In this document: positions 3,439 through 18,136 of the stretch, piece by piece
Position numbering within the stretch: position 1 is the stretch's first letter
How the letters are laid out: the number at the start of each line of letters is the position of its first letter
Source: an uncultured Spirochaetales bacterium
Lineage (GTDB): Bacteria; Spirochaetota; Spirochaetia; Sphaerochaetales; Sphaerochaetaceae
Assembly (NCBI GenBank): GCA_949297785.1
Contig: CASFTW010000033.1
Coordinates: forward strand, 1 to 36,348
Direction: 5' to 3'
Length of the DNA stretch: 36,348 nucleotides
Made by a program: the position numbers and the translations under genes
Notes under the pieces: model-generated
Seen by the model: the letters and a program-made list of their open reading frames with translations, nothing else
Told to the model about the DNA's origin: nothing
The model's database searches: none

Positions 3439-4764
3439 TCAGTTCTTCATGCTGAACGGCTGTCTGGTGTTCTCAAGAACATCTCTCCACAGAGATCCCT
3501 CGATATCCACATGGCTTCTCTTGGATACAGCCTGCTTGATCGGCAGATACACAAACTGATTGTTCACGCGGCTGACAAGACATCTTGTCTTGCCGGCCAT
3601 TGCGGCATGGACGGCATGTGCGCCGAGACGTGCGCAGTAAATTGAGTCATAGCTGTTGGCAGGGGCCGAGCGTATGATGTAGGACGGATCAATATACTTT
3701 ACGGATGTCGGGATGCCTTCATCCTTGAAGTACTGCTTGATCCTCTCCTTGAGGAATATTCCGATGTCATGATACTTGATGTTTCCTGATGCGTCGGTCT
3801 CTCCTGTAGGAGGAGCGAATTCCTGTCCTGCACCTTCGGCAACGAGAATGACTGCATGTCCGCGCTCAAGTATTCGCCTCTTGAGATTCTCAAGCAGACC
3901 GTTGGGACCGTCAAGATCGAACGGACTTTCGGGAATCAGACAGAAGTTCACGTCGGACTGGGCAAGGGATGTGTGTGCGGCAATGAAGCCGGACTCGCGT
4001 CCCATGACCTTTACAAGGCCGATTCCGTTGATTGAGTTCTTAGCCTCGACATGCGCTCCGCGCACTGAAGGAACCGCCGATGTAACGGCAGTATCGAAAC
4101 CGAAGGAGGAATCGATGAAGCTCAGATCGTTGTCGATCGTCTTCGGGACACCGACAACCGCGATCTTGAGACCGCGCTTATTTATCTCCTCACCGATATC
4201 ATAGGCACCGCGCAGAGTACCGTCACCGCCGATCGTGATGAGGATGTTTATATTAAGCCTCTCAAGCGAGTCGACAATCTCCTCGACCTGCTTTCCGCCG
4301 CCGCGTGCGGAGCCGAGGATCGTACCGCCCTTCTCCTGTATGTCGTCAACGACATCCGGATCAAGAGGGATGAGCGGCCATGCCGAATTCTCCAGCAGTC
4401 CGAGATAACCGTACTGGATGCCGGAGATTCTCCTTACACCGTAGCGGTACCAGAAACAGCGCACGACTGCCCTGATGACATTGTTCAGACCAGGGCATAT
4501 GCCGCCGCAGGTGCAGATTGCAGCATGGACATGGCTGGGGTTGAAGTAGATTTTCTCTCTGGGGCCTGCGACTTCCATCGCATCCTCATGCACCGGCTGT
4601 CTTCTGCCGTCCACAACCTCAGTATCGATTGAATAAAGCACCTTGTCGCTGTCATTCACATAATCAGCCATACCGTCGCCGCCGCTCTTGCTCATGCGGA
4701 TCGGGGACTGAAGCTTGGCTTCTCCGAGGGTTTCAATATCGAAATCATAAAGACGATCACCCAT
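3439..4764 (-). CDS. pfkA: 6-phosphofructokinase, long B2-type
   Basis: This 441-residue cytosolic enzyme phosphorylates fructose 6-phosphate at C1, the committed step of glycolysis. The substrate and nucleotide motifs are in order: GGICPGLN (about 87-94), IGGDGTLRGA (about 178), PKTIDND (about 207-213, holding the catalytic Asp), MGRESGFIA and an IPE motif. The family discriminators are mixed. Gly in GGDG (E. coli G104) is typical of ATP-dependent enzymes, whereas Lys in PKTIDND (E. coli G124) is typical of PPi-type sequences. Known enzymes with this pairing, such as trypanosomal PFK, use ATP, so I call it ATP-dependent. The 80-residue N-terminal extension is normal for this clade. The start has GGAGGA 8 nt upstream and lies 8 bp inside the regulator gene, which suggests translational coupling. 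Confidence 0.92.
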   Translation of the reverse strand: MGDRLYDFDIETLGEAKLQSPIRMSKSGGDGMADYVNDSDKVLYSIDTEVVDGRRQPVHEDAMEVAGPREKIYFNPSHVHAAICTCGGICPGLNNVIRAVVRCFWYRYGVRRISGIQYGYLGLLENSAWPLIPLDPDVVDDIQEKGGTILGSARGGGKQVEEIVDSLERLNINILITIGGDGTLRGAYDIGEEINKRGLKIAVVGVPKTIDNDLSFIDSSFGFDTAVTSAVPSVRGAHVEAKNSINGIGLVKVMGRESGFIAAHTSLAQSDVNFCLIPESPFDLDGPNGLLENLKRRILERGHAVILVAEGAGQEFAPPTGETDASGNIKYHDIGIFLKERIKQYFKDEGIPTSVKYIDPSYIIRSAPANSYDSIYCARLGAHAVHAAMAGKTRCLVSRVNNQFVYLPIKQAVSKRSHVDIEGSLWRDVLENTRQPFSMKN

Positions 4765-5125
4765 TCTTGTATTCCTCCATTTGTTTCATCAAGAGCCCAG
4801 AGAATTTCTCATAAGGTATCTTAACACATTCTTTTGCTTCTTTCTGGAAGTCAGAATAAATTTTCACGAAATTCACGGCAAATGGAGTGAGACTCGCGCC
4901 GTCACGGCTGGAACCGCCCTTGCGGCGCTCCAGCACCTCCATTCCGAGCTGTTCCTCCAGTCTCCTGATCATGTTGTAAGCCTTGGTGTATGAAACCGAC
5001 ATGCTGGCAGCCGCTTTGCGCAGGCTGCCCAGTTCTCCGACTCTCTCAAGCAGCCACAGGACGCCCACACCCATGAACTTTTCACCATTCTCATCGACCA
5101 GATAGAATTTCGTCTTCAGCTCCAT
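4757..5125 (-). CDS. ModE-like winged-helix transcriptional regulator (DNA-binding domain only)
   Basis: This 122-residue protein matches the N-terminal LysR-like winged helix of ModE. The pattern GVLWLLERVGELGSLRKAA, then VSYTKAYNMIRRLEEQLG and ERRKGGSSRDGASLT, is the conserved helix-turn-helix and wing. Full-length ModE (about 260 residues) adds two molybdate-binding Mop domains; none is present, so the ligand, if any, is unknown. It overlaps the aminotransferase upstream by 10 bp and phosphofructokinase downstream by 8 bp, so all three are almost certainly one transcript and it may control its own operon. The start has AGGAGA 5 nt before ATG. Identity of the fold is solid; the regulatory role is inferred. 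Confidence 0.85.
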   Translation of the reverse strand: MELKTKFYLVDENGEKFMGVGVLWLLERVGELGSLRKAAASMSVSYTKAYNMIRRLEEQLGMEVLERRKGGSSRDGASLTPFAVNFVKIYSDFQKEAKECVKIPYEKFSGLLMKQMEEYKNG

Positions 5126-6466: not shown

Positions 6467-8575
6467 TCAGAAATCAAAGGAAAGCTGTGCCTGTCCTCTG
6501 TCCTCCTCCTTCTTTTCCTCCTTTTTCTCCCCCTGAGAGAGAAGAGAGAGAAACTCATCCTCACTCACGATCTTCACACCAAGGGAAAGGGCCGTGCTCC
6601 GCTTTCCTCCGCCGCCCTGACCCGCAAGCAGGTGTGTGGTTTTCCCTGTAATTGACGATACAGTACGGGCGCCTCTCTTTTCAAGCTCCCTGAGCGCAAG
6701 CGAACGGGGATTGAAATGCTCGAAGCTTCCGGTGACGGCCCATACCTGACCGGCGAATATCTGGTCAGGCTTCTCCTCCCGATCATCATGCACCTCGAAC
6801 TGCAGTCCTGCCGCCCGGAGTTTTTCTATCCTCGCCCTCATCGCTTCATCCCTCAATGCCTCTATGATCAGATGTGCTGTCTGCTCTCCTATCTGGGGAA
6901 TGGAAGTGAATGCAGCGACATCATTCTCATCGCTTGCCTTCAGCAGATCGTCAATTGAACGGAAGCCGCCTTTGATGAGAATCTCGGCGCCCTTGCTCCC
7001 CACCTCGGGAAGGCCGAGGGATGAGAGAACCGTGGCAAACGGCCTTTTCTTCGACTCTTCAACCGCATCACGGAAAGCCTTCACCATCTTCTCCCCATAT
7101 CCTTTCTCCGTGAGGAGCAGGCTGTAGTCGCATGTGTACAGATCCGGAATATCCCTTACGAGATGCATGTCATAAAGCTTCTCGATTGCCTTAGGTCCTA
7201 TTGAGTCCATATCCATCTGGTCGCGTGCAGTGAAGAATGAAAGCCTTCCCTTCACCTGATCCGGACAGTCCCTGTTCGGGCAGAAGAGATGCGCGCCTTT
7301 ATGTACAAGGGGAGTTGAACAGGTCGGACAGAGAGGAGGAATGACGTATGTCTTGTTCCCCTCTTCATTCTTCTCAAGCACTTCCTCAACGGCAGGAATG
7401 ACATCCCCTCTCTTGACGACGGACACTGTATCGCCGATGGCAAGTTCCAGCTCGTCGATATATTCCTGATTGTGCAGTGTCGCCCTTTTCACCGTCGAGC
7501 CGGCAAGGGAGACGGGTTCAAGTTCGGCAACAGGCGTTATGCGGCCGGTCCTGCCGACCTGCACCGTGACGGAAAGCACCTTCGTCACGGCCTGAGGGGA
7601 TTCGAATTTATATGCGATTGCCCAGCGCGGATGATGCTCGGTATAGCCCAGGTCATCACGCACGGCAATCTCGTTGACCTTCGTGACCATGCCGTCAATC
7701 TCGTACTCAAGACTCTTACGCTTCTGCGTCACTTCCTCAAGGTACGATGCAAGATCGCCGAATGCGAGGGCGCGGGCCTGAAGTCCGGCTTCCTTAATAA
7801 GCTTTCCGGAATGCTCTGCAGACGATGAGAACACGGCAAGGTGCGGATTGATCCTGAATCCTAGATCCTTCAGGCAGGCAAGGATCGCAAGATGGCTGTC
7901 AGGAGTCTGGCTCCTGTCCGCCCAGAAACCTTCGTAGACGAAAATCGTGAGCGGAATCTGAGCCGCCTCGCTGCTCTTCTGCCTTCTCACGGTGCCAGCA
8001 GTCATGTTGCGGGCATTGGCGACCTCGGGATTCGTTTCTTTGAGACGCTCGAAATCGGCTTTGGGAAGATACACTTCCCCCCTCACCGCAATCGTGACGG
8101 GCCGTGAAAGGCGCAGGGGGATCGTCTTTATCGTCCTTATATTGTCGCTCACGTCATTGCCCACATAGCCGTTGCCGCGCGTGAGCGCCCTTACGAACAT
8201 GCCCTCCTCGTAATAGAGGACGATTGAAATACCGTCTATTTTCTCTTCCTCGACGAACGAGAGATTGCCATGTGCCATGGCTGAAGTCTTCTCCATCCAG
8301 GAAACGACCTCGGAGGCGCTGTATGCCTTGTCCAGGGAGAGAACGGGAATCGTATGCTCAACTTCGGGAAAGTCGCTGGTGAGATCGGAACCGACCCTCA
8401 TTGTCGGGGAATTCACGCTCCTGAGTTCTGGATGTTCTCTCTCTATCGCGGAAAGTTCGTCAAAAAGACCATCATACTCCAGATCGCTCATGAGCGGTCT
8501 GCCGTCAACATAATAAGCTTTCTGAGCTTTCAACAGCTCGTCACTGAGCTCCTGTACTCTTTTCTGCAGATCCAT
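6467..8575 (-). CDS. ligA: NAD-dependent DNA ligase LigA
   Basis: This 702-residue protein seals nicks in duplex DNA during replication and repair using NAD+. Domain order is complete: Ia domain with the AYYVDGRPLMSDLEYD NAD-binding signature, the adenylation domain with K-x-D-G (Lys about 112 in EEKIDGIS), OB fold (VGRTGRITPVAELEPV), four-cysteine zinc finger (CPTC, then CPNRDC), HhH repeats, and a C-terminal BRCT domain (VWAVTGSF, then GKTTHLLAG). It is slightly longer than the usual 670 because of a Lys/Glu-rich tail ending QAQLSFDF, which resembles a sliding-clamp-binding peptide. There is no Shine-Dalgarno; a -10-like TATACT ends 7 nt before the ATG, suggesting a leaderless transcript. 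Confidence 0.96.
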   Translation of the reverse strand: MDLQKRVQELSDELLKAQKAYYVDGRPLMSDLEYDGLFDELSAIEREHPELRSVNSPTMRVGSDLTSDFPEVEHTIPVLSLDKAYSASEVVSWMEKTSAMAHGNLSFVEEEKIDGISIVLYYEEGMFVRALTRGNGYVGNDVSDNIRTIKTIPLRLSRPVTIAVRGEVYLPKADFERLKETNPEVANARNMTAGTVRRQKSSEAAQIPLTIFVYEGFWADRSQTPDSHLAILACLKDLGFRINPHLAVFSSSAEHSGKLIKEAGLQARALAFGDLASYLEEVTQKRKSLEYEIDGMVTKVNEIAVRDDLGYTEHHPRWAIAYKFESPQAVTKVLSVTVQVGRTGRITPVAELEPVSLAGSTVKRATLHNQEYIDELELAIGDTVSVVKRGDVIPAVEEVLEKNEEGNKTYVIPPLCPTCSTPLVHKGAHLFCPNRDCPDQVKGRLSFFTARDQMDMDSIGPKAIEKLYDMHLVRDIPDLYTCDYSLLLTEKGYGEKMVKAFRDAVEESKKRPFATVLSSLGLPEVGSKGAEILIKGGFRSIDDLLKASDENDVAAFTSIPQIGEQTAHLIIEALRDEAMRARIEKLRAAGLQFEVHDDREEKPDQIFAGQVWAVTGSFEHFNPRSLALRELEKRGARTVSSITGKTTHLLAGQGGGGKRSTALSLGVKIVSEDEFLSLLSQGEKKEEKKEEDRGQAQLSFDF

Positions 8576-8608: not shown

Positions 8609-9838
8609 TTAGACCCGGTGAGAAAGACTTCTGACGTACTCATCCATGCTGAGGGCGACTTTCTTTGCATAGTTCACGGCTTCCACAACAGTGCGTGCAC
8701 CGAGAACCACATCACCGGCCGCAAAGATGCCGGGATGGGTGGTCTGGCCCTTCTCATCGGTGAGAAGAAGTCCGTTCCTGCTCGGCTTCAGGCCTTCCGT
8801 TGTATCGACAAGCTTGCTCTTGGGCCCCTGTGAGATGGCAATGAAGACATTGTCCGCCTCAACCTTGATCTCTCCTTCCACTTCGCCCGTGATACGGCCT
8901 TCATCATCGAGGATGGTCTTCACGAACACCGGCCCGTCCTTTTCTATGCGCACGGGCTTCATGCAGTATTCGAACGCGGCGCCTTCAAGCATCGCGTATT
9001 CCCTCTCATCCGCAGAGGCGTCACAGACATTCCTCCTTGCGTATATCGTGACCTCATGGCGGCCGGGGGAACGCAGTATGGTACGTGCGACATCCATTGC
9101 CGTATTGCCCGCACCGATGATGGCGATTTTCCTGCCCAGATCATACGAGTCGGGATTGACCAAGAAGTCGATTGCGTAATGCACATTGCCAAGGCTCTCG
9201 CCGGGGATTGAAAGCTTCTTCGGTCTCCAGACTCCGGTTCCGATGAAGATCGCCCTGTAGCCGTCCCTCAGAAGGTCATCGATGACAAGAGCTCCTCCTA
9301 TGGTGGTGTTCGGTCTCACATGCACCCCGATTTCAGACAGGCGTGTCATATAGCGGTCAAGAATAGACTTGGGAAGACGGAATTCGGGAATGCCGTAGCG
9401 CATGACCCCGCCGATCCTGTCACGCGAATCAAAGATCGTGACATCATAGCCCATCTTTCTCATTTCAATGGCAATCGTTATGCCGGCAGGTCCGGCACCT
9501 ATGACGGCGATCATGTTTCCGTTGCTCTCTGCCCTGTCAATTTCAACAGTGTCGAGGCAGGCATCGGAAATATAGTTCTCGATCGATGAGATATGGACAC
9601 CTTCGCCTCGGCGGGAGAGCACGCAGTGTCCCTCGCACTGTTTCTGATGATCGCACACAAGCGAGCATACAACCGAAAGTGGATTGTTCGAGAAAAGCAT
9701 CTTACCCGCTTGCCTCACCTTGTTTTCCTTCAGCAGTCTGATCATGCCCGGGATATCGGTGGATATGGGGCAGCCCGTACGGCAGAGAGGCTTTTTGCAC
9801 TGCAGGCATCTGCCGGCTTCTTCTATCACGTGAATCAT
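8609..9838 (-). CDS. GltD-like NAD(P)H-dependent flavoprotein oxidoreductase with two Fe-S motifs
   Basis: This 409-residue protein belongs to the glutamate-synthase small-subunit superfamily (GltD, NfnB, dihydropyrimidine dehydrogenase-like). The N-terminal ferredoxin-like part has C11, C14, C19 and C23, then CSLVCDHQKQCEGHC, enough for two [4Fe-4S] clusters. An FAD site follows (IGAGPAGITIA), then MRYGIPEFRLPK typical of the family, an NAD(P) site (IGAGNTAMDVART), and the second FAD motif (GIFAAGDVV). There is no glutamate synthase large subunit nearby, so the partner and substrate are open. It is head-to-head with the xanthine-dehydrogenase-like operon and might feed electrons to it. I place the start at ATG 9838, with AAGGAG 10 nt upstream, rather than the longer frame from 9859. 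Confidence 0.85.
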   Translation of the reverse strand: MIHVIEEAGRCLQCKKPLCRTGCPISTDIPGMIRLLKENKVRQAGKMLFSNNPLSVVCSLVCDHQKQCEGHCVLSRRGEGVHISSIENYISDACLDTVEIDRAESNGNMIAVIGAGPAGITIAIEMRKMGYDVTIFDSRDRIGGVMRYGIPEFRLPKSILDRYMTRLSEIGVHVRPNTTIGGALVIDDLLRDGYRAIFIGTGVWRPKKLSIPGESLGNVHYAIDFLVNPDSYDLGRKIAIIGAGNTAMDVARTILRSPGRHEVTIYARRNVCDASADEREYAMLEGAAFEYCMKPVRIEKDGPVFVKTILDDEGRITGEVEGEIKVEADNVFIAISQGPKSKLVDTTEGLKPSRNGLLLTDEKGQTTHPGIFAAGDVVLGARTVVEAVNYAKKVALSMDEYVRSLSHRV

Positions 9839-9870
9839 CAGCTTTCTTCTCCTTTTCAAACAACATTTCC

Positions 9871-9987: not shown

Positions 9988-11955
9988 ATGGCAGAACACA
10001 TGCGATCCAGCCAGAACAAAAGCAATAAGTTCTATGGTGTGACAATAAACAGCGGGAAGGCGGGAGTCAGGATAAAGGACATCCGGCTTCCTGATCTGGG
10101 TGAACGCTATTTCATCCTGAGAAAGCAGGACTTTCCCTCAAACGGCGTGCTGTCCGTATTCTCCGGCAGTGTTCCGGTTCTCAGCGAGGACAACATCCTT
10201 TTCCCCCAGCAGGCAGTAATGGCTGTCTTCGGTCCCGACAACGAGTCGGTGGCCCTGCAGGCAAAGAACATACATTTTGAATACGAAAGTCTTGACGACG
10301 GTCAGAACCACTTCAACTTCGAGGACGGTTTCACCGATTCCCTCATAATGGGAAACAGAGGTGAGAACACCGGCAGCCTGAGGGAAATAAAGACAAAGTT
10401 CAGGACAAAAACCGAATCATATACAAGCAGCACCATAATAAGCTGCGAGGCATGGCAGGAAGGGGACAAGATGCACATAGAGGTGCCGACCCAGTGGCCG
10501 CAGCTCATAAGAGTCAATGTCGCACAGCTTCTTTCCCTTGACACATCAAACGTGATCGTGCATCAGATGCCGTGCAATCCGCTTCACAACGAATACCTCA
10601 TCTACCCGGCCGTGCTTGCATACATAGCGGCGATGGGAGCAATCAGGGCGGGAGTTCCGGTTGTTCTCTCAGGCAATGCCTGCTCAGACAGCCCTGTGCT
10701 GAGTGTGGACAGGACAACATGGTGTACTGAAGACGGAAAGCCCGTTTATGAGGAGTGTACGGTGGAAGCCGAACTCGGGGCCTTCCAGATCGAGGACAGG
10801 GAGTACATAAGACAGGCTCTTGCCGGGCTCATACCGAACTACCCTCTTTCCTATTTCAACGCCAGCGTCACGACAAAGCGCAGTGCTTCACGCCCCTCCC
10901 TCTTCTATTCCGGCTGCGGCTATGCAGATGCCCTTTTCACAAGCGAGGCCCATATTTCCCATATCGCATCGGCTTTCGAAATTCCGGTGCCCCAGTGGAA
11001 GGAATACGTCAGCAGGGACGGCAAAAGATCGTTCACTGATTATCTTCCCTCAGTACAGCTGTCACCCCTCGTACAGCTGGAAAGGGACATAGTGGAGAAA
11101 AGCGATTTCAACCGCAAGTGGTCCAGCTACGAGACACAGCACAACGACTATTCGGTCATCCCGTTCAACAGAGGCATCGGCCTTGCATGCGGCATCTCCG
11201 TTGCGGGCTTCTCGACATCGCTGGCAAGACAGGTCAACAGCCAGGCCAAGATAACGCTGACGGAAAAGCAGAACGTCACCCTTCTCACTTCATTCATGGA
11301 GGACAGCGGTTTTGAATCGACCGTGAAAAACATAATATCAGGAGAAGTCGACCTCGGCATTGACGGAGAGGTCATGGTCCTCGACAATGACGGCGTGCTG
11401 ATCGACTCGGGACCTGACATGCTTTCGAGAAACCGTGCAAGTTTCCTCACACAGCTTGCAGGAGCATGCTCGAAGCTCAATATACAGAGAAAGGAGGAAA
11501 AACCGCCATTCTCCGTATTCTTTTCATGTGATGACAATCTCATGCCATGTGAATTCGACCAGAGGGGACGGGCTGCCGTAATCATCGAGATAAGGGTGGA
11601 CAATATAAGCTTCATACCTGTCGCGACCGGGGCATGGGTCAGTGTGGACATCGGAAGGCTGGACAACAGGAAGAATATCGAAGCGGAAGTCAGAAGCACC
11701 ATAACAAGGACGCTCAGCGAATGCGGCGCACAGCTTTCCACCGAAAGCGAAAAGCCCTTCAGCATCAGCTTTTCCGTGCATGAGACGATTGCGGAATACT
11801 CATCCGCCCTCACCCAGGCAGTGAATGCACTTACCAGGGCGGCTTTCCTCAGTGCGCTCAACCAGTGTGTCCCCTCCATAGAGGAAGGACTCCCGGTTTC
11901 TCCCTCAGACATACAGAAAGCTTTGAACGAAAAGGAGAGTGCAGGTGAAAATTGA
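9988..11955 (+). CDS. Degenerate molybdopterin-binding-subunit-like protein (xanthine dehydrogenase/aldehyde oxidase family)
   Basis: This 655-residue protein is shorter than typical Moco large subunits (about 750-800). The link rests on order and context: it is followed by small [2Fe-2S] and FAD subunits, and its middle and C-terminal parts show the family pattern in weakened form (GIGLACGISVAGF; DLGIDGEVMVLDNDGVLIDSGPDMLSRNRASF; a C-terminal LPVSPSDIQKAL like the usual P-x-T/S-P-x-x-V-x-x-A-L). The glycine-rich GGxFGGK-type motif and the GxGE motif with the catalytic Glu are not recognisable. It may bind a different cofactor, be structural, or be inactive. No signal peptide is seen. I assign the start to ATG 9988, which fits a leaderless mRNA. 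Family assignment is moderate; activity is unknown. Confidence 0.6.
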   Translation: MAEHMRSSQNKSNKFYGVTINSGKAGVRIKDIRLPDLGERYFILRKQDFPSNGVLSVFSGSVPVLSEDNILFPQQAVMAVFGPDNESVALQAKNIHFEYESLDDGQNHFNFEDGFTDSLIMGNRGENTGSLREIKTKFRTKTESYTSSTIISCEAWQEGDKMHIEVPTQWPQLIRVNVAQLLSLDTSNVIVHQMPCNPLHNEYLIYPAVLAYIAAMGAIRAGVPVVLSGNACSDSPVLSVDRTTWCTEDGKPVYEECTVEAELGAFQIEDREYIRQALAGLIPNYPLSYFNASVTTKRSASRPSLFYSGCGYADALFTSEAHISHIASAFEIPVPQWKEYVSRDGKRSFTDYLPSVQLSPLVQLERDIVEKSDFNRKWSSYETQHNDYSVIPFNRGIGLACGISVAGFSTSLARQVNSQAKITLTEKQNVTLLTSFMEDSGFESTVKNIISGEVDLGIDGEVMVLDNDGVLIDSGPDMLSRNRASFLTQLAGACSKLNIQRKEEKPPFSVFFSCDDNLMPCEFDQRGRAAVIIEIRVDNISFIPVATGAWVSVDIGRLDNRKNIEAEVRSTITRTLSECGAQLSTESEKPFSISFSVHETIAEYSSALTQAVNALTRAAFLSALNQCVPSIEEGLPVSPSDIQKALNEKESAGEN

Positions 11956-12451
11956 ACTTACTGTCGACGGTAAATATCTTGCATTGTCGGTGAGCAGCGA
12001 CAAGCCTCTCAACCTGCTGCTGCGTGATGATCTTGAGATAAAATCGGTTCACAGCCACTGCAACGGCAGTATGTGCGGCAACTGCATAGTCCTTCTGGAA
12101 GGAAGAGCTGTCCTGTCCTGCATGATTCCATCATTTGCGGTCAGGGGCAAGACCATCGTCACCTATGACGGTTTCTGCAGGACAAGGGATTACAGGGACA
12201 TAGAGAAGGCATTCAACGCCTGTTCCGCCTTTCCCTGCGACACATGCTATGCATCAAGAGTGCTGCTGATTGAAAGCATAGTGCGGCGCTACGAGAGAGG
12301 CGGCAGCGACATTGACGACAATGAGATACTTCAGGAATCGCAGCTGATCCGCTGCTTCTGCATGGACAGCGCAAGTTTTCTTGCCGTCGTGAAGGAAAGC
12401 ATCAGCAACAGGAGAAAGAGAAAGAATGTACGCAGAACTCCGCTCACCTAA
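11945..12451 (+). CDS. [2Fe-2S] small subunit, CoxS/XdhC-like
   Basis: This 168-residue protein has the two-domain layout of the iron-sulfur subunits of xanthine dehydrogenase and CO dehydrogenase. The plant-type ferredoxin domain has C39, C44, C47 and C59 (C-x4-C-x2-C-x11-C) with the usual IVLLEGRAVLSC strand. The helical domain has C98, C101, C137 and C139 (C-x2-C-x35-C-x-C). All eight ligands are present, so two [2Fe-2S] clusters are expected. Its known role is to carry electrons between Moco and FAD. I choose GTG 11945 because AAGGAG sits 7 nt upstream; the GTG at 11939 is too close to that site. It overlaps the upstream gene by 11 bp and the downstream FAD gene by 26 bp. Confidence 0.82.
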   Translation: MKIELTVDGKYLALSVSSDKPLNLLLRDDLEIKSVHSHCNGSMCGNCIVLLEGRAVLSCMIPSFAVRGKTIVTYDGFCRTRDYRDIEKAFNACSAFPCDTCYASRVLLIESIVRRYERGGSDIDDNEILQESQLIRCFCMDSASFLAVVKESISNRRKRKNVRRTPLT

Positions 12452-13325
12452 CATTCATGAACCGCTCAACATGGCGGAATACAACAATACGATTCTCAGC
12501 TACCGTGATGTGACTCCGGTGCTCTGGGCGGGAGGAACTGAAATCATGAGCCGTCCGGACTACTACCCTTCCCAGAAAGCCAATGTCGAGCTCATTTCCC
12601 TGGACAAGGTCGAGGAACTGCATCACTTCCTGAGAAACGACCGTTTTGCGGAATTCGGCGCCATGGTGAGCATCAACGATATTGCACAGGCCGGCAAGCT
12701 CGTACTGCCCAGAATCCTGCTTGAAACGATCAACAGCACCGCATGCAGAACCGTCCGGGAGAGGATCACAATCGGAGGTTCCCTGTGCACAAAATCCTTC
12801 AAGACCAATCTTGCCTCCACCCTCATGATTCTCGATGCTGCAGTGGAAATAAGATACCTGAAGAAGAGAATGCATTCCAAATGGTTCCAGCTGTCCAGGA
12901 TCTATGACAAAAACGGAAAGCTTGAGATGCAGGATGGCGGACTGCTTTCCAAGGTGAGGATTGCGATACAGCAGTACGACTATCAGTACTTCAGGAGTGC
13001 CGGCTCTCCGATGTCCGACAAGGAAAACGCAGTCTCGCTTGCACTTGTCGCACGTTTCGAACAGGGGAATATTTCATACGCAAGGATAATCTTCACACTG
13101 CCGGACAAAGGCTTCTGCTACTCGCGGGATCTTGACAACCTGATCACAAGCGTCCAGCTTCCCCTGGGCATCACACGCTATAGCCAGGTCGAAAACTATG
13201 TAGTGGATTACATCAAGGAAAACCTTTCCGGAATCTCGGCACTGCAGGAGGCCAGAATAAAAGGTCTCTTTCATGACATGTTCATGGATATGAACGAGAC
13301 TGTGCTATGCTATACGCCGAAATGA
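12426..13325 (+). CDS. FAD-binding subunit, CoxM/XdhB-like
   Basis: This 299-residue protein matches the FAD-binding medium subunit of molybdenum hydroxylases. The diphosphate-binding motif is AGGTE (35-39) and the second FAD motif is TIGGSLCT (115-122), both well kept. The C-terminal half resembles the CO_deh_flav_C domain (YFRSAGSPMSDKENAVSLALVARF). Its predicted job is electron exchange between the [2Fe-2S] subunit and a soluble acceptor such as NAD+. It starts with ATG inside the previous gene and ends 40 bp before a strong bidirectional terminator, so it closes the operon. The contrast between this intact subunit and the degraded large subunit is unusual. Confidence 0.75.
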   Translation: MYAELRSPNIHEPLNMAEYNNTILSYRDVTPVLWAGGTEIMSRPDYYPSQKANVELISLDKVEELHHFLRNDRFAEFGAMVSINDIAQAGKLVLPRILLETINSTACRTVRERITIGGSLCTKSFKTNLASTLMILDAAVEIRYLKKRMHSKWFQLSRIYDKNGKLEMQDGGLLSKVRIAIQQYDYQYFRSAGSPMSDKENAVSLALVARFEQGNISYARIIFTLPDKGFCYSRDLDNLITSVQLPLGITRYSQVENYVVDYIKENLSGISALQEARIKGLFHDMFMDMNETVLCYTPK

Positions 13326-13427: not shown

Positions 13428-13808
13428 CTATTCAGACAGAGGCATAAGTGCCAGGCTGATATTGTCAGGCTCCAATCCTGACCATGAACCTGTGACCGCA
13501 TCAATGATCAGAGGAACGAGACCTGAAAAAACATCAAGCACAACCCATCCGGCACCGACCTTGTCGCTTATAGTAGCGTAGCCGTCCTGATATCCTTCCT
13601 TTTCGACCTTGATAGTGTACGAATCACCTTTCCCGAGCTCCAATGTCAGCGGAGTATAGCCTCGCGGGATACCGTTAACGGAAACCAGTGCATCAGAAGG
13701 ACTTGTCGTAATGACAACCTCGTCAGTATTGCCGGAAAAAATAGTTGCACATGATGTGAACATGAATGAGAGCGCCACAAACAGAGATATAATAATGATT
13801 TTCTTCAT
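13428..13808 (-). CDS. PEGA-domain lipoprotein
   Basis: This 126-residue protein begins with a lipoprotein signal (KKIIII, hydrophobic core, then FTSC with Cys20 as the lipidation site). A PEGA domain follows: VVITTSPSDALVSVNGIPRGYTP, then LELGKGDSYTIKVEKEGYQ. PEGA domains are surface or periplasmic beta-sandwich modules common in spirochaetes. A C-terminal hydrophobic patch (WVVLDVFSGLVPLIIDAV) is typical of a related group of small lipoproteins. It lies 25 bp downstream of the outer-membrane barrel gene on the same strand, so the two may share a transcript. There is no evident Shine-Dalgarno. The specific function is unknown. Confidence 0.82.
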   Translation of the reverse strand: MKKIIIISLFVALSFMFTSCATIFSGNTDEVVITTSPSDALVSVNGIPRGYTPLTLELGKGDSYTIKVEKEGYQDGYATISDKVGAGWVVLDVFSGLVPLIIDAVTGSWSGLEPDNISLALMPLSE

Positions 13809-13833
13809 TTTCGTTAATTATCAGAAATATTTG

Positions 13834-14451
13834 TCAATATATGTAAGCAATACCCAGATACGGTATCACACCTATTCCATAGCAGTTCACATCATACTCC
13901 AATGTAATGCCATACATAGTGGCACTGGCATTTGTAAATATAGGTACAAGCACCTTTGCACCAGCTTTAAGTACAATATGTTCAGCCGGCTCAAACGAAA
14001 TTCCGACATTGCCTTCGGCACCGATCTGCCACATGGATATCTTCATGCCGGACTCTTTTGTCGAAGTGTAACCATAATATAAACCAATACCGGCCTCAAG
14101 TTTCATGGATTCACCAAGCTCATGTCTGTACTGGAAAGAAAGTGCCGGTTTGAACTGAATGTCAGGATCTTCCACTTTCTGAAAATCTCCGTCCTCAACC
14201 TTTGCAGAAAGCGGATAAAGCATACTGACGGAGTAACCGAGTCCTACGGAATCAGTGAAATAATGGGCACCCGAGAGGCCAAGATAATAATCAATCTCCG
14301 ATCCGGATACAGAAAGAGATTCTTCCCCCATATCCATTTTCATATTTATCCACATAATGTTGGCACCGGTATCAACACCGATCCATCCGGAAGCGAATGC
14401 CGCAGCGGTACTCAGAATCAGAACCAGAAAAAACAGAACTGTTTTCTTCAT
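13834..14451 (-). CDS. Outer-membrane beta-barrel protein, small porin-like
   Basis: This 205-residue protein has a Sec signal peptide (KKTVLFFLVLILSTAAAFAS, cleavage after AFA). Short amphipathic strands alternate through the mature part (WIGVDTGANIMWIN, YLGLSGAHYFTDSVGLGYSVSMLYP, LEAGIGLYYGYTS, YGIGVIPYLGIAYIY). The C-terminus ends in aromatic Tyr, as expected of barrels recognised by BamA. Size suggests 8-10 strands. It may be a spirochaetal outer-membrane protein; no specific substrate can be given. The start has GAGGG about 8 nt upstream. It precedes the PEGA lipoprotein gene, suggesting a cell-envelope pair. Confidence 0.7.
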   Translation of the reverse strand: MKKTVLFFLVLILSTAAAFASGWIGVDTGANIMWINMKMDMGEESLSVSGSEIDYYLGLSGAHYFTDSVGLGYSVSMLYPLSAKVEDGDFQKVEDPDIQFKPALSFQYRHELGESMKLEAGIGLYYGYTSTKESGMKISMWQIGAEGNVGISFEPAEHIVLKAGAKVLVPIFTNASATMYGITLEYDVNCYGIGVIPYLGIAYIY

Positions 14452-14715: not shown

Positions 14716-14744
14716 GAGACAAACATGTATTTTTCAGTTATACT
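14716..14744 (+). promoter_or_regulatory. Leaderless promoter of dnaE
   Basis: GAGACA (14716-14721, 4 of 6 to TTGACA), a 17-bp spacer and TATACT (14739-14744) are followed by 7 nt and then ATG 14752. This would put the transcription start at or within a base or two of the ATG. No Shine-Dalgarno is present. Confidence 0.6.
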
Positions 14745-14751
14745 TCACCTT

Positions 14752-15375
14752 ATGAGCGAAGAGATCATCAATCAGGAAACAGAAGCAAAGAGAAGCGGAT
14801 TCATTCATCTGCACAACCATACAGACTACTCCCTTCTGGACGGTGCCGCCCAGATAGGCAAATACATTGCGAAGTGCAAGGAAAACAACATGGATGCCAT
14901 AGCCATCACGGACCATGGCAACATGTACGGTGCACTGAAATTCTACAAAGCCTGCAAGGCAGCCGGAATAAAGCCCATCATCGGCAGCGAATTCTACATG
15001 AACCCGAAGAGCAGGAGGGATCAGAGCCCGACATCGGAAGGCCGCAACCATTTCTATCATCTCATTCTGCTTGCGATGAACGACAGAGGCTATCATCACC
15101 TGATGGAGCTCACTACAATCGCGAATACGGAAGGTTTCTACTACAAGCCCAGAATAGATGATGAAGTTCTCTCCTCCCACAGCGAGGACCTCATATGTCT
15201 TTCGGCATGCCTTGGCGGCGAGATACTGCAGAATCTTCTCCATGACCGCTATGACGAAGCTAAGGAAAGAGCCGCATGGTTCAAGAACCTCTTCGGAGAC
15301 AGATACTACATCGAACTGCAGGATCACGGTCTTGAAGAACAGAAGAGGACAAAGGGAAGACGCCAATGCCCATGA
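14752..15375 (+). pseudogene. dnaE: DnaE N-terminal PHP-domain fragment (frame interrupted)
   Basis: The frame encodes the start of the bacterial replicative DNA polymerase III alpha subunit. The PHP domain is clear: HLHNHTDYSLLDGA, ITDHGNMYGALKFYKACK, then GFYYKPRIDDE and CLSACLGGEI. Homology runs to YYIELQDHGLEEQKRT at about 15350. It then leaves the DnaE frame (KGRRQCP, stop). The family normally continues with a segment containing a conserved A-T-N-D-x-H-Y motif; that segment, about 24-27 residues, is missing, and homology resumes in the next frame. I place the start at ATG 14752, fitting the promoter, rather than the in-frame ATG at 14725. Confidence 0.8.
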
Positions 15376-18136
15376 CACGCTGCTGTGCATCGGCACAAAC
15401 GCCAAGAAGAGAGACGAGAAGAGAATGCGCTTCCCGAATGACAACTTCTACTTCAAAAGCGAAGAGGAAATGCGCAGCATCTTCTCATACTGTCCCGAGG
15501 CGGTGGATAACACAAGAGTCATCGCGGACAGATGCAATCTTGATGTCGTGTTCCCCGGTCCACTCCTTCCCGACTACGAAATTCCCGAGGGATTCAAGGA
15601 TACAAAGGAATATCTGGTGCACCTTGCAAATGAAGGCTGCGTGAGACGATACGGTGAGATAACACCTTCCCTCAGGGAAAGGCTGGACCACGAGCTCGAC
15701 ATCATCCTGAAAATGAATTTCGACGGATACTTCCTCATCGTGCGTGACTATATCTACTGGGCCAAGACACATGACATCCCGGTAGGGCCCGGAAGAGGCT
15801 CGGGTGCCGGTTCCCTTGTCGCCTACTGTGTAGATATCACGGACGTGGATCCGATAAAATACAATCTTCTTTTCGAACGCTTCCTCAACCCTGAAAGAGT
15901 CTCGATGCCCGATTTCGATATCGACTTCTGCTTCGAACGGCGCGGAGAGGTCATACAATATGTGACCGAGCATTACGGCAAGGACAGAGTCGGTCAGATC
16001 TGTACTTTCGGAACGCTGAAGGCGAAGGCGGTCGTAAAGGATGTGGCACGTGTCCTCGACATTCCTTTCGACGAATCAACGGCAATATGTAAGTTCATCC
16101 CCGATGAACCGAAGATGACCATAGACAAGGCCATCGCACAGGAACCGAAGCTTCAGGAGATCATAGACAGGGGCGGCGTGTATGCGGAGCTCTTTGACAC
16201 CGCACGCCGTCTGGAAGGAGGCGCCCGACATACTTCACTGCATGCGGCAGGCGTCGTCATCGGCAAGACTGACCTCATCGATTACGTTCCCATCTCCTTC
16301 GATCCGAAAACACGGAGCATCGCCACGCAGTATACGATGGACCAGATCGAGGAATGCGGCCTTGTCAAGATGGACTTCCTCGGACTCAAGACCCTCACGC
16401 TCATCAAGCATACGGTTGACCTCATCCACAAAAAGGATCCCGCATTCGATATTGCGAAGATCGACGAGGAGGACAAGCCTACATTCGACATGCTGAAAAG
16501 AGGAGATTCGGAGTGTGTGTTCCAGTTTGAATCAGGCGGCATGCAGAAGGTTCTGCGCGATGCACAGCCCGAGTCCATAGAAGATCTTGTCGCATTGAAT
16601 GCCCTTTACCGTCCGGGCCCGATGCAGTACATCGACCGCTTCGTAAGCTGCAAGAACGGTCTCCAGCCGATTGAATATGCAGATCCGGAGCTGGAACCGG
16701 TACTCAAGAACACTTACGGCGTCATCGTCTACCAGGAACAGGTCATGCAGGTTGCCCAGATCATAGCCGGTTACTCTCTAGGCCAGGCCGATATCCTGCG
16801 CCGTATCATGGGAAAGAAGAAGGTCGAGAAGCTTGCCGAGGAGAAGGTGAAATTCGTTGCCGGTGCCGTGAAGCTCGGACGCGATGCGAAGCATGCCGAG
16901 GAAATATTCGAAATGCTTGAGCCATTCGCACAGTACGGCTTCAACAAGTCACATGCGGTCGCCTATTCAATCGTCGCATACCAGACAGCCTTCCTCAAGG
17001 CGAACTACCCCGCAGAGTTCCTTGCGGCGAACCTGACAAATGAAATGACGAATCCGGACAAGTTCAAGGACTATCTGACACTTGCCGACAACATGGGAAT
17101 AAAGATCCTGCCTCCTTCCATCAACGACTCCGACATGCATTTCAATGTCGTAGGCAATGACATCGTCTACGGCCTTGCCGGAATAAAGACAGTCGGAGAG
17201 AACATCACAAAACTCATTGTGCAGGAAAGGGAGGAAAACGGAAAATACAGATCCTTCATGGATTTCCTCTCGCGTCAGAGCGACGGCATCGTCAACTCAC
17301 GCATACTTGAAGCACTTATAAAAGCCGGATGTTTCGACTGTCTGGGCGAAGACAGGGCGACACTCATGGCAAACCTTGATGCCGCAATCGCATACGACAA
17401 AGGCTGCAGGGAAACAACCGCCTACGGCCAGATCTCCCTCTTCGGCGACGAGGTGCAGCTTGACGAGTTCGTATTCCGTCCGGCAGAGCCATGGTCGAAA
17501 CGTGAGATGCTTGATATGGAGAAGGAGCTCATCGGACGGTATGTATCCGGTCATCCGCTGGACAGCTACAAGGAAGACATAGAGCGCTGTGTATGGGTGG
17601 ACATTTCAAAGCCTGATGAGCTTCCGCGTGAAAGGGATGTGAACCTCATCTGCCAGGTAAGCTCGCTCAGGGTCATCAAGACAAAGAAAGGCACACTCAT
17701 GGCTTCCCTTGTGCTTACAAATTACCAGGGCAGCATTGAGGCCGTGATATTCCCAAAAGTCTTCCAGGAACTCGGAGAGAAGATTCAGGATGACGGAATA
17801 TACGGATTCACAGGCCGCTTTGACGAGCGCCGTGACGGTGGCGGTTTCCAGTTCATAATAAGCAATGCAGTCGACCCGAAGGAACTTCCGAGCGAGGCTG
17901 TCAGGAGCATCGGACTCGCCCTTGACTCGGCACTCCTTGCCGGCAGCGAGGGAGACCATTATCTTAATGAAGTGATCTCATTCCTGATCGAGCACAGCGG
18001 AAGCCTTCCGCTGAACATCTATCTGGATGACAGGAAAGACCAGTATGTGAAGTCAAGTTTTTCCGTCTCCTATTACAAGGAGATCAGAAAGGATCTTGCC
18101 GCTTTCCCTGTCATAAGGAATGTCTACATAGCATAG
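15351..18136 (+). CDS. dnaE: DNA polymerase III alpha subunit, polymerase core (separated from its N-terminus)
   Basis: From about EDANAHDTLL onward this frame gives the rest of DnaE. It contains GPGRGSGAGSLVAY, the catalytic PDFDIDF aspartates, MDFLGLKTLT with the third metal-linked Asp region, the palm and fingers, an HhH region, a QISLF peptide (17429-17443) matching the internal sliding-clamp motif, and the OB fold. The frame is open back to 15158, but those first 64 codons are out-of-frame translation of the PHP segment, so I begin at the frame switch; ATG 15425 is the first in-frame Met with family homology after it. With the N-terminal part the total would be near the usual 1,150 residues. 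As this is an essential replicative polymerase, an assembly or sequencing error is a live possibility. Confidence 0.85.

Follow-up and report, generated by a model that had tools for sequence, protein, structure and literature searches.

The defining feature of molybdenum hydroxylases is their cofactor (Moco). The xanthine oxidase family of these enzymes includes xanthine dehydrogenase, aldehyde oxidase, 4-hydroxybenzoyl-CoA reductase and quinoline 2-oxidoreductase, and the gene trio analyzed here shares with it the make-up of large (L), small (S) and FAD (F) subunits, the FAD_binding_5 domain, the ligand residues for two [2Fe-2S] clusters and a homologous L. In contrast to this family, the trio lacks the Moco loop, RGxG and GQG and, in most cases, also the catalytic Glu; its S has a basic tail, and it persists in organisms in which Moco synthesis was not detected. 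The nearest motif-complete relatives are two canonical hydroxylases of the same genome family, L131 (719 aa) and L140 (703 aa), which score 160 and 220 bits with the L profile; unlike trio L, they carry GGxFGGK, GQG and GE, and they fall in a separate clade. Second matches of this canonical kind in the family genomes are ~24% identical to the L of the window. Another comparison is with the E3/AscD-type FAD-[2Fe-2S] reductases, which pair with DegT/DnrJ-family enzymes in dideoxysugar synthesis: in both systems, a PLP enzyme of the DegT family is accompanied by a flavin/Fe-S source of electrons, but the protein folds are different. This analogy is weakened by the aminotransferase of the trio operon, which keeps the catalytic Lys that is replaced by His in E1 dehydrases. 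In the genome of the syphilis spirochaete, a gene in the vicinity of sugar-synthesis genes has been annotated as ‘quinoline 2-oxidoreductase’; this may be the same operon. We found no description of the trio, of Moco-less family members, or of TP0080 and its neighbors in the open-licence literature.

The window, i.e., the whole stretch of 36,348 nucleotides that was analyzed, comes from an uncultured Spirochaetales bacterium, and the trio lies at positions 9988-13325 as an operon of three overlapping plus-strand open reading frames in the order L-S-F. The trio and its named neighbors are as follows:

6467-8575, minus strand: ligA-type NAD-dependent DNA ligase, the divergent neighbor of the trio in most family genomes, not part of the complex
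9988-11955, plus strand: L, large subunit of the xanthine oxidase superfamily without Moco loop, RGxG, GQG and catalytic Glu, 655 aa
11945-12451 (reading frame opens at 11939), plus strand: S, small subunit with two [2Fe-2S] clusters, eight Cys and an Arg-rich C-terminal tail
12426-13325, plus strand: F, FAD subunit (FAD_binding_5), 299 aa, with AGGT and TIGG motifs
14725-18136, plus strand: dnaE-type gene, downstream of F

The functions of the ligA-type and dnaE-type neighbors are what we take them to be from sequence and family knowledge. The start of S is probably the GTG at 11945, which stands behind AAAGGAG and is where relatives start too, rather than 11939. F matches FAD_binding_5 at 6e-19, and the matches of S are hydroxylase small subunits with [2Fe-2S] clusters, including glyceraldehyde-DH gamma at 6e-18. 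L is homologous to the MoCoBD_1/MoCoBD_2 domains, its MoCoBD_1 match of 28.2 bits being just over the curated cut-off of 27. A profile of 36 family L proteins detected the aldehyde oxidase and xanthine dehydrogenase structures of the PDB at 3e-29 to 1e-19, with matches extending over profile positions 18-504, and a PDB search with the single L sequence gave no match. Judged by sequence, the trio belongs to the xanthine oxidase superfamily, with homology beyond chance. L has 655 aa versus 703-851 aa in canonical large subunits and is homologous to them along its whole length. An AlphaFold2 model of L, built from a shallow alignment (window, L034 and L035), had a pLDDT of 30 and a pTM of 0.19.

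We aligned 116 trio L proteins (57 from the window's own family and 59 from other families) jointly with nine canonical large subunits, namely XdhA and PaoC of E. coli plus seven motif-bearing hydroxylases from related genomes. This alignment bears out the claim, made from the window alone, that L is short and lacks the Moco motifs and the catalytic Glu: neither the Moco-binding loops nor the Glu was found in L of the window, which has a CNPLHNEY-type sequence at the place of the Moco loop GGGFGGK, DSG for GQG, SGCG for RGxG, and a residue other than Glu at the catalytic position. The GGGFGGK loop, in full or with one change, is present in 9/9 canonical proteins and in 0/116 trio L. In its fifth column, all nine canonical proteins have Gly, compared to none of the 57 own-family L, which have Asp (54) or Asn (3), directly followed by Glu in 49/57. 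The RGxG arginine is found in 9/9 canonical versus 2/57 own-family proteins, and the GQG glutamine in 8/9 versus 7/57, with the flanking glycines absent from the latter. The catalytic Glu (GxGE; bovine Glu1261, whose role is described in PMC10420851) is present in 9/9 canonical proteins, in 1/57 of the own family and in 19/59 of other families, several of which still have a GxGEL motif despite the lost Moco loop. All trios share the loss of the loop, whereas this persistence suggests that the Glu disappeared later or in some branches only. Residues of its own are conserved in the family L, namely Q169-W170, D/N201-E202, R376 and D473-S-G-P.

Supply of the cofactor was compared across carrier genomes. 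The window's genome has no match to MoaA, MoaC or MoeA_N; this absence says little alone because three other hydroxylases are present, two of which have XdhC- and YgfK-type genes in their vicinity (YgfK being named from size and position only), so that the check for Moco genes proposed in the sequence-only reading is not decisive there. The genomes without another hydroxylase and without MoaC are the decisive ones for apparent Moco independence, with salvage of Moco from outside being possible. In 29/40 genomes of other families, MoaC is lacking and the trio L is the location of the sole MoCoBD_1 protein. For 19 of these 29, the trio locus was read directly; the others have an L-profile match at the same place, except G194, for which the place is not listed. 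In the window's own family, G076 (complete, one contig) has the trio L as its sole Moco-hydroxylase-like protein, and MoaC, MoaA and MoeA_N are absent. The trio thus persists in genomes in which neither another such Moco enzyme nor MoaC was found.

Strong MoCoBD_1 matches mark canonical molybdenum hydroxylases in almost all family genomes (e.g., L131 and L132, at G000:C9 and C4), whereas MoaC was detected in 11/139 and MoeA_N in 2/139 family genomes, and MoaA was absent from that of the window. For this combination of abundant canonical hydroxylases and scarce MoaC/MoeA_N, we propose Moco salvage or an unrecognised pathway.

The domains of L are kept and its Moco loops lost, while the cluster ligands and FAD motifs are kept in nearly all lineages. 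We lean towards the view that the trio would be a Moco-independent flavin/Fe-S oxidoreductase complex on a molybdenum-hydroxylase scaffold, inherited from the class ancestor. Of the readings considered, the likeliest is that of a flavin/Fe-S redox complex whose pocket was remodelled, and the textbook reaction is improbable; new chemistry, another cofactor or redox sensing, all raised in the sequence-only reading, are possible. In such a complex, F would exchange electrons with a nicotinamide or another soluble donor, the electrons would pass via both S clusters to the interface with L, where they would reach a small molecule or a partner in a rebuilt pocket instead of molybdenum. The alignments suggest that this pocket may comprise the conserved Gln-Trp, the Asp/Asn-Glu that replaces the Gly loop, and Arg376. 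Ancestrally, the trio may have had as partners the NDP-sugar dehydratase and the aminotransferase whose genes share its operon in other families.

The electron-transfer subunits support this reading in most lineages. The S of the window has the cysteine pattern C41-x4-C46-x2-C49-x11-C61, then C100-x2-C103 ... C139-x-C141, and F has the GGT and TxGG motifs as AGGT at 35-38 and TIGG at 115-118, confirming that all eight [2Fe-2S] cysteines and both FAD motifs are kept. All eight cluster Cys are present in 106/116 S proteins across 16 families, the window included, while the Moco site is gone, which agrees with the claim that selection keeps the electron-transfer parts. Three Cys are missing from the S of L143, and one from each of seven other S, mostly C139, where the alignment is uncertain. 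Seven of the eight Cys are lost, independently, in two S proteins of different families, L072 (G076) and L113 (G268). These lineages keep L, S and F, with AGGT and TIGG in the F of L072 and AGST and TIGG in that of L113. The Fe-S path is thus selected in nearly all lineages and can be given up, so that electron transfer is not indispensable everywhere, and the retention of all three genes in the two Cys-poor lineages counts against a redox complex. It would fit a non-redox scaffold or regulator, in which the xanthine dehydrogenase-like body and the Arg-rich tail of S bind nucleic acid, membrane or protein, the cofactors being structural or sensory. The tail itself, with a net charge of at least +3 in the final 25 residues of 97/116 S versus +1 and +2 in two canonical S proteins, is consistent with this explanation, as is tight coupling to dnaE, the gap from F being -4 to 95 nt in most relatives. 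The wide conservation of the cysteines argues against it, and FAD motifs persist even in the Cys-less lineages; we regard a scaffold as unlikely. The Cys-poor S genes lie at L072:10857-11411 and L113:9823-10302, both in single-contig genomes.

In other families, the trio comes last in an operon with the order LoaP/NusG-type antiterminator, PseB/CapD-like NDP-sugar dehydratase, PseC/DegT-like aminotransferase, L, S and F. The aminotransferase is -17 to +40 nt from L in 15/20 other-family loci read at length, and its catalytic Lys is kept in 13/15, the pattern being unmatched in two. This shared operon and the intact Lys speak for a more specific form of the redox reading, a nucleotide-sugar oxidoreductase in which L would bind a UDP-amino sugar, perhaps at the former site of Moco cytosine dinucleotide, and the trio would act after the dehydratase and the aminotransferase. 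The window's whole family, however, keeps the trio and has no close orthologue of either gene: the dehydratase query finds only longer paralogues at 35-40% identity, and the aminotransferase query finds one genome at 38%. The trio is therefore not dependent on them there, and dependence on a sugar pathway was rejected for this family; the missing genes count against the redox complex as well as against the nucleotide-sugar enzyme, which we consider rather improbable. We give a similarly low chance to a pan-spirochaete flavin/Fe-S enzyme whose hydroxylase pocket would hold another redox partner instead of molybdenum, possibly a nucleotide sugar in the old cofactor-dinucleotide tunnel, and which would catalyze a new surface-sugar reaction.

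An unusual but genuine molybdenum enzyme would have to bind Moco through other contacts. Gln169 of L corresponds in the alignment to the Gln in the aldehyde oxidase SSQ/STQ segment, and the window's genome, having canonical hydroxylases, may obtain Moco; the loss of the Moco loop from every trio L and the many carriers without MoaC and without another MoCoBD_1 protein make this explanation very improbable.

The sequence-only reading had called the large subunit degraded; this is contradicted by its dN/dS of 0.075-0.10, its single class-wide clade and its own conserved residues. Compared to its two nearest relatives, dN/dS (Nei-Gojobori) was 0.075 and 0.097 for L, where synonymous sites of the second pair are near saturation, 0.10 and 0.085 for S, and 0.05 for F; the adjacent ligA had 0.06 and 0.13 in the same two comparisons. 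The dN/dS check proposed for L is thus indicative of purifying selection, and the highest value in any 80-codon window of L was at most 0.19. L is intact in 132/139 genomes of the window's family and in 21/22 genera (presence counted at E < 1e-25), and the remaining seven genomes, including three of g22, have weak canonical-type matches or none. Nearly all family matches to L have intact frames, with one in-frame stop in three of the listed ones. The outcomes that would have spoken against the sequence-only reading, a full set of Moco motifs or broken orthologues, did not appear, and the trio does not qualify as a pseudogene by frameshifts, stops or relaxed selection. L, S and F are all under purifying selection, and the trio is actively maintained. 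A decaying relic of a molybdenum hydroxylase, for which motif loss and the faster divergence of L compared to S and F might be cited, is hardly credible given class-wide retention, intact frames and dN/dS near 0.1 along the whole L.

The order L-S-F is constant in all 56 family loci examined and in 59 loci from 15 further families of the class, where the motif losses in L are the same as in the window's family. In the tree, all trio L are on one side of a branch from canonical L (SH-aLRT 99), and own-family L are on one side of another branch with support of 100. The simplest reading is a single origin before the split of these families, followed by vertical descent. The L-profile search was confined to Spirochaetota and gave matches in 209/393 genomes of the phylum, a tally that mixes in canonical hydroxylases (e.g., those of f29); f5, a small-genome family, had no L match in its listed genomes. 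The f29 genomes have L-profile matches of ~1e-55, to a trio or a canonical hydroxylase. The mention of similar proteins in treponemes accords with the presence of related proteins throughout a spirochaete family, and the two nearest named records are from Spirochaetales.

A class that keeps the three-subunit scaffold without the cofactor site, including species without detected Moco synthesis, would provide a natural example of an enzyme family outliving its active metal. Intermediates would be preserved for study, with the Glu present in some families and gone in others and with two lineages without Fe-S ligands. It should be noted that labelling the trio automatically as ‘xanthine dehydrogenase’ would lead to a false prediction of molybdenum metabolism for such genomes.

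In its own family, the trio sits between the divergent ligA and dnaE, and several other families also keep the position before dnaE. In the window, two antisense genes separate F from dnaE, which is split into two frames. These frames (14725-15375 and 15158-18136) overlap, whereas relatives have one frame of 1136-1204 aa, suggesting a frameshift or an assembly error. The genes between the trio and dnaE (13428-14451, minus strand) encode a PEGA-domain protein and an outer-membrane beta-barrel; in most relatives, this place is empty. The gene at 8609-9859 (minus strand), between ligA and the trio, encodes a GltD-like pyridine-nucleotide oxidoreductase with a Fer4_20 domain and occurs at this position in only five relatives. 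A short ModE-type HTH protein is encoded at 4757-5125 (minus strand), between phosphofructokinase and aminotransferase genes; in 28 of the loci read, a member of this HTH family is found upstream of ligA.
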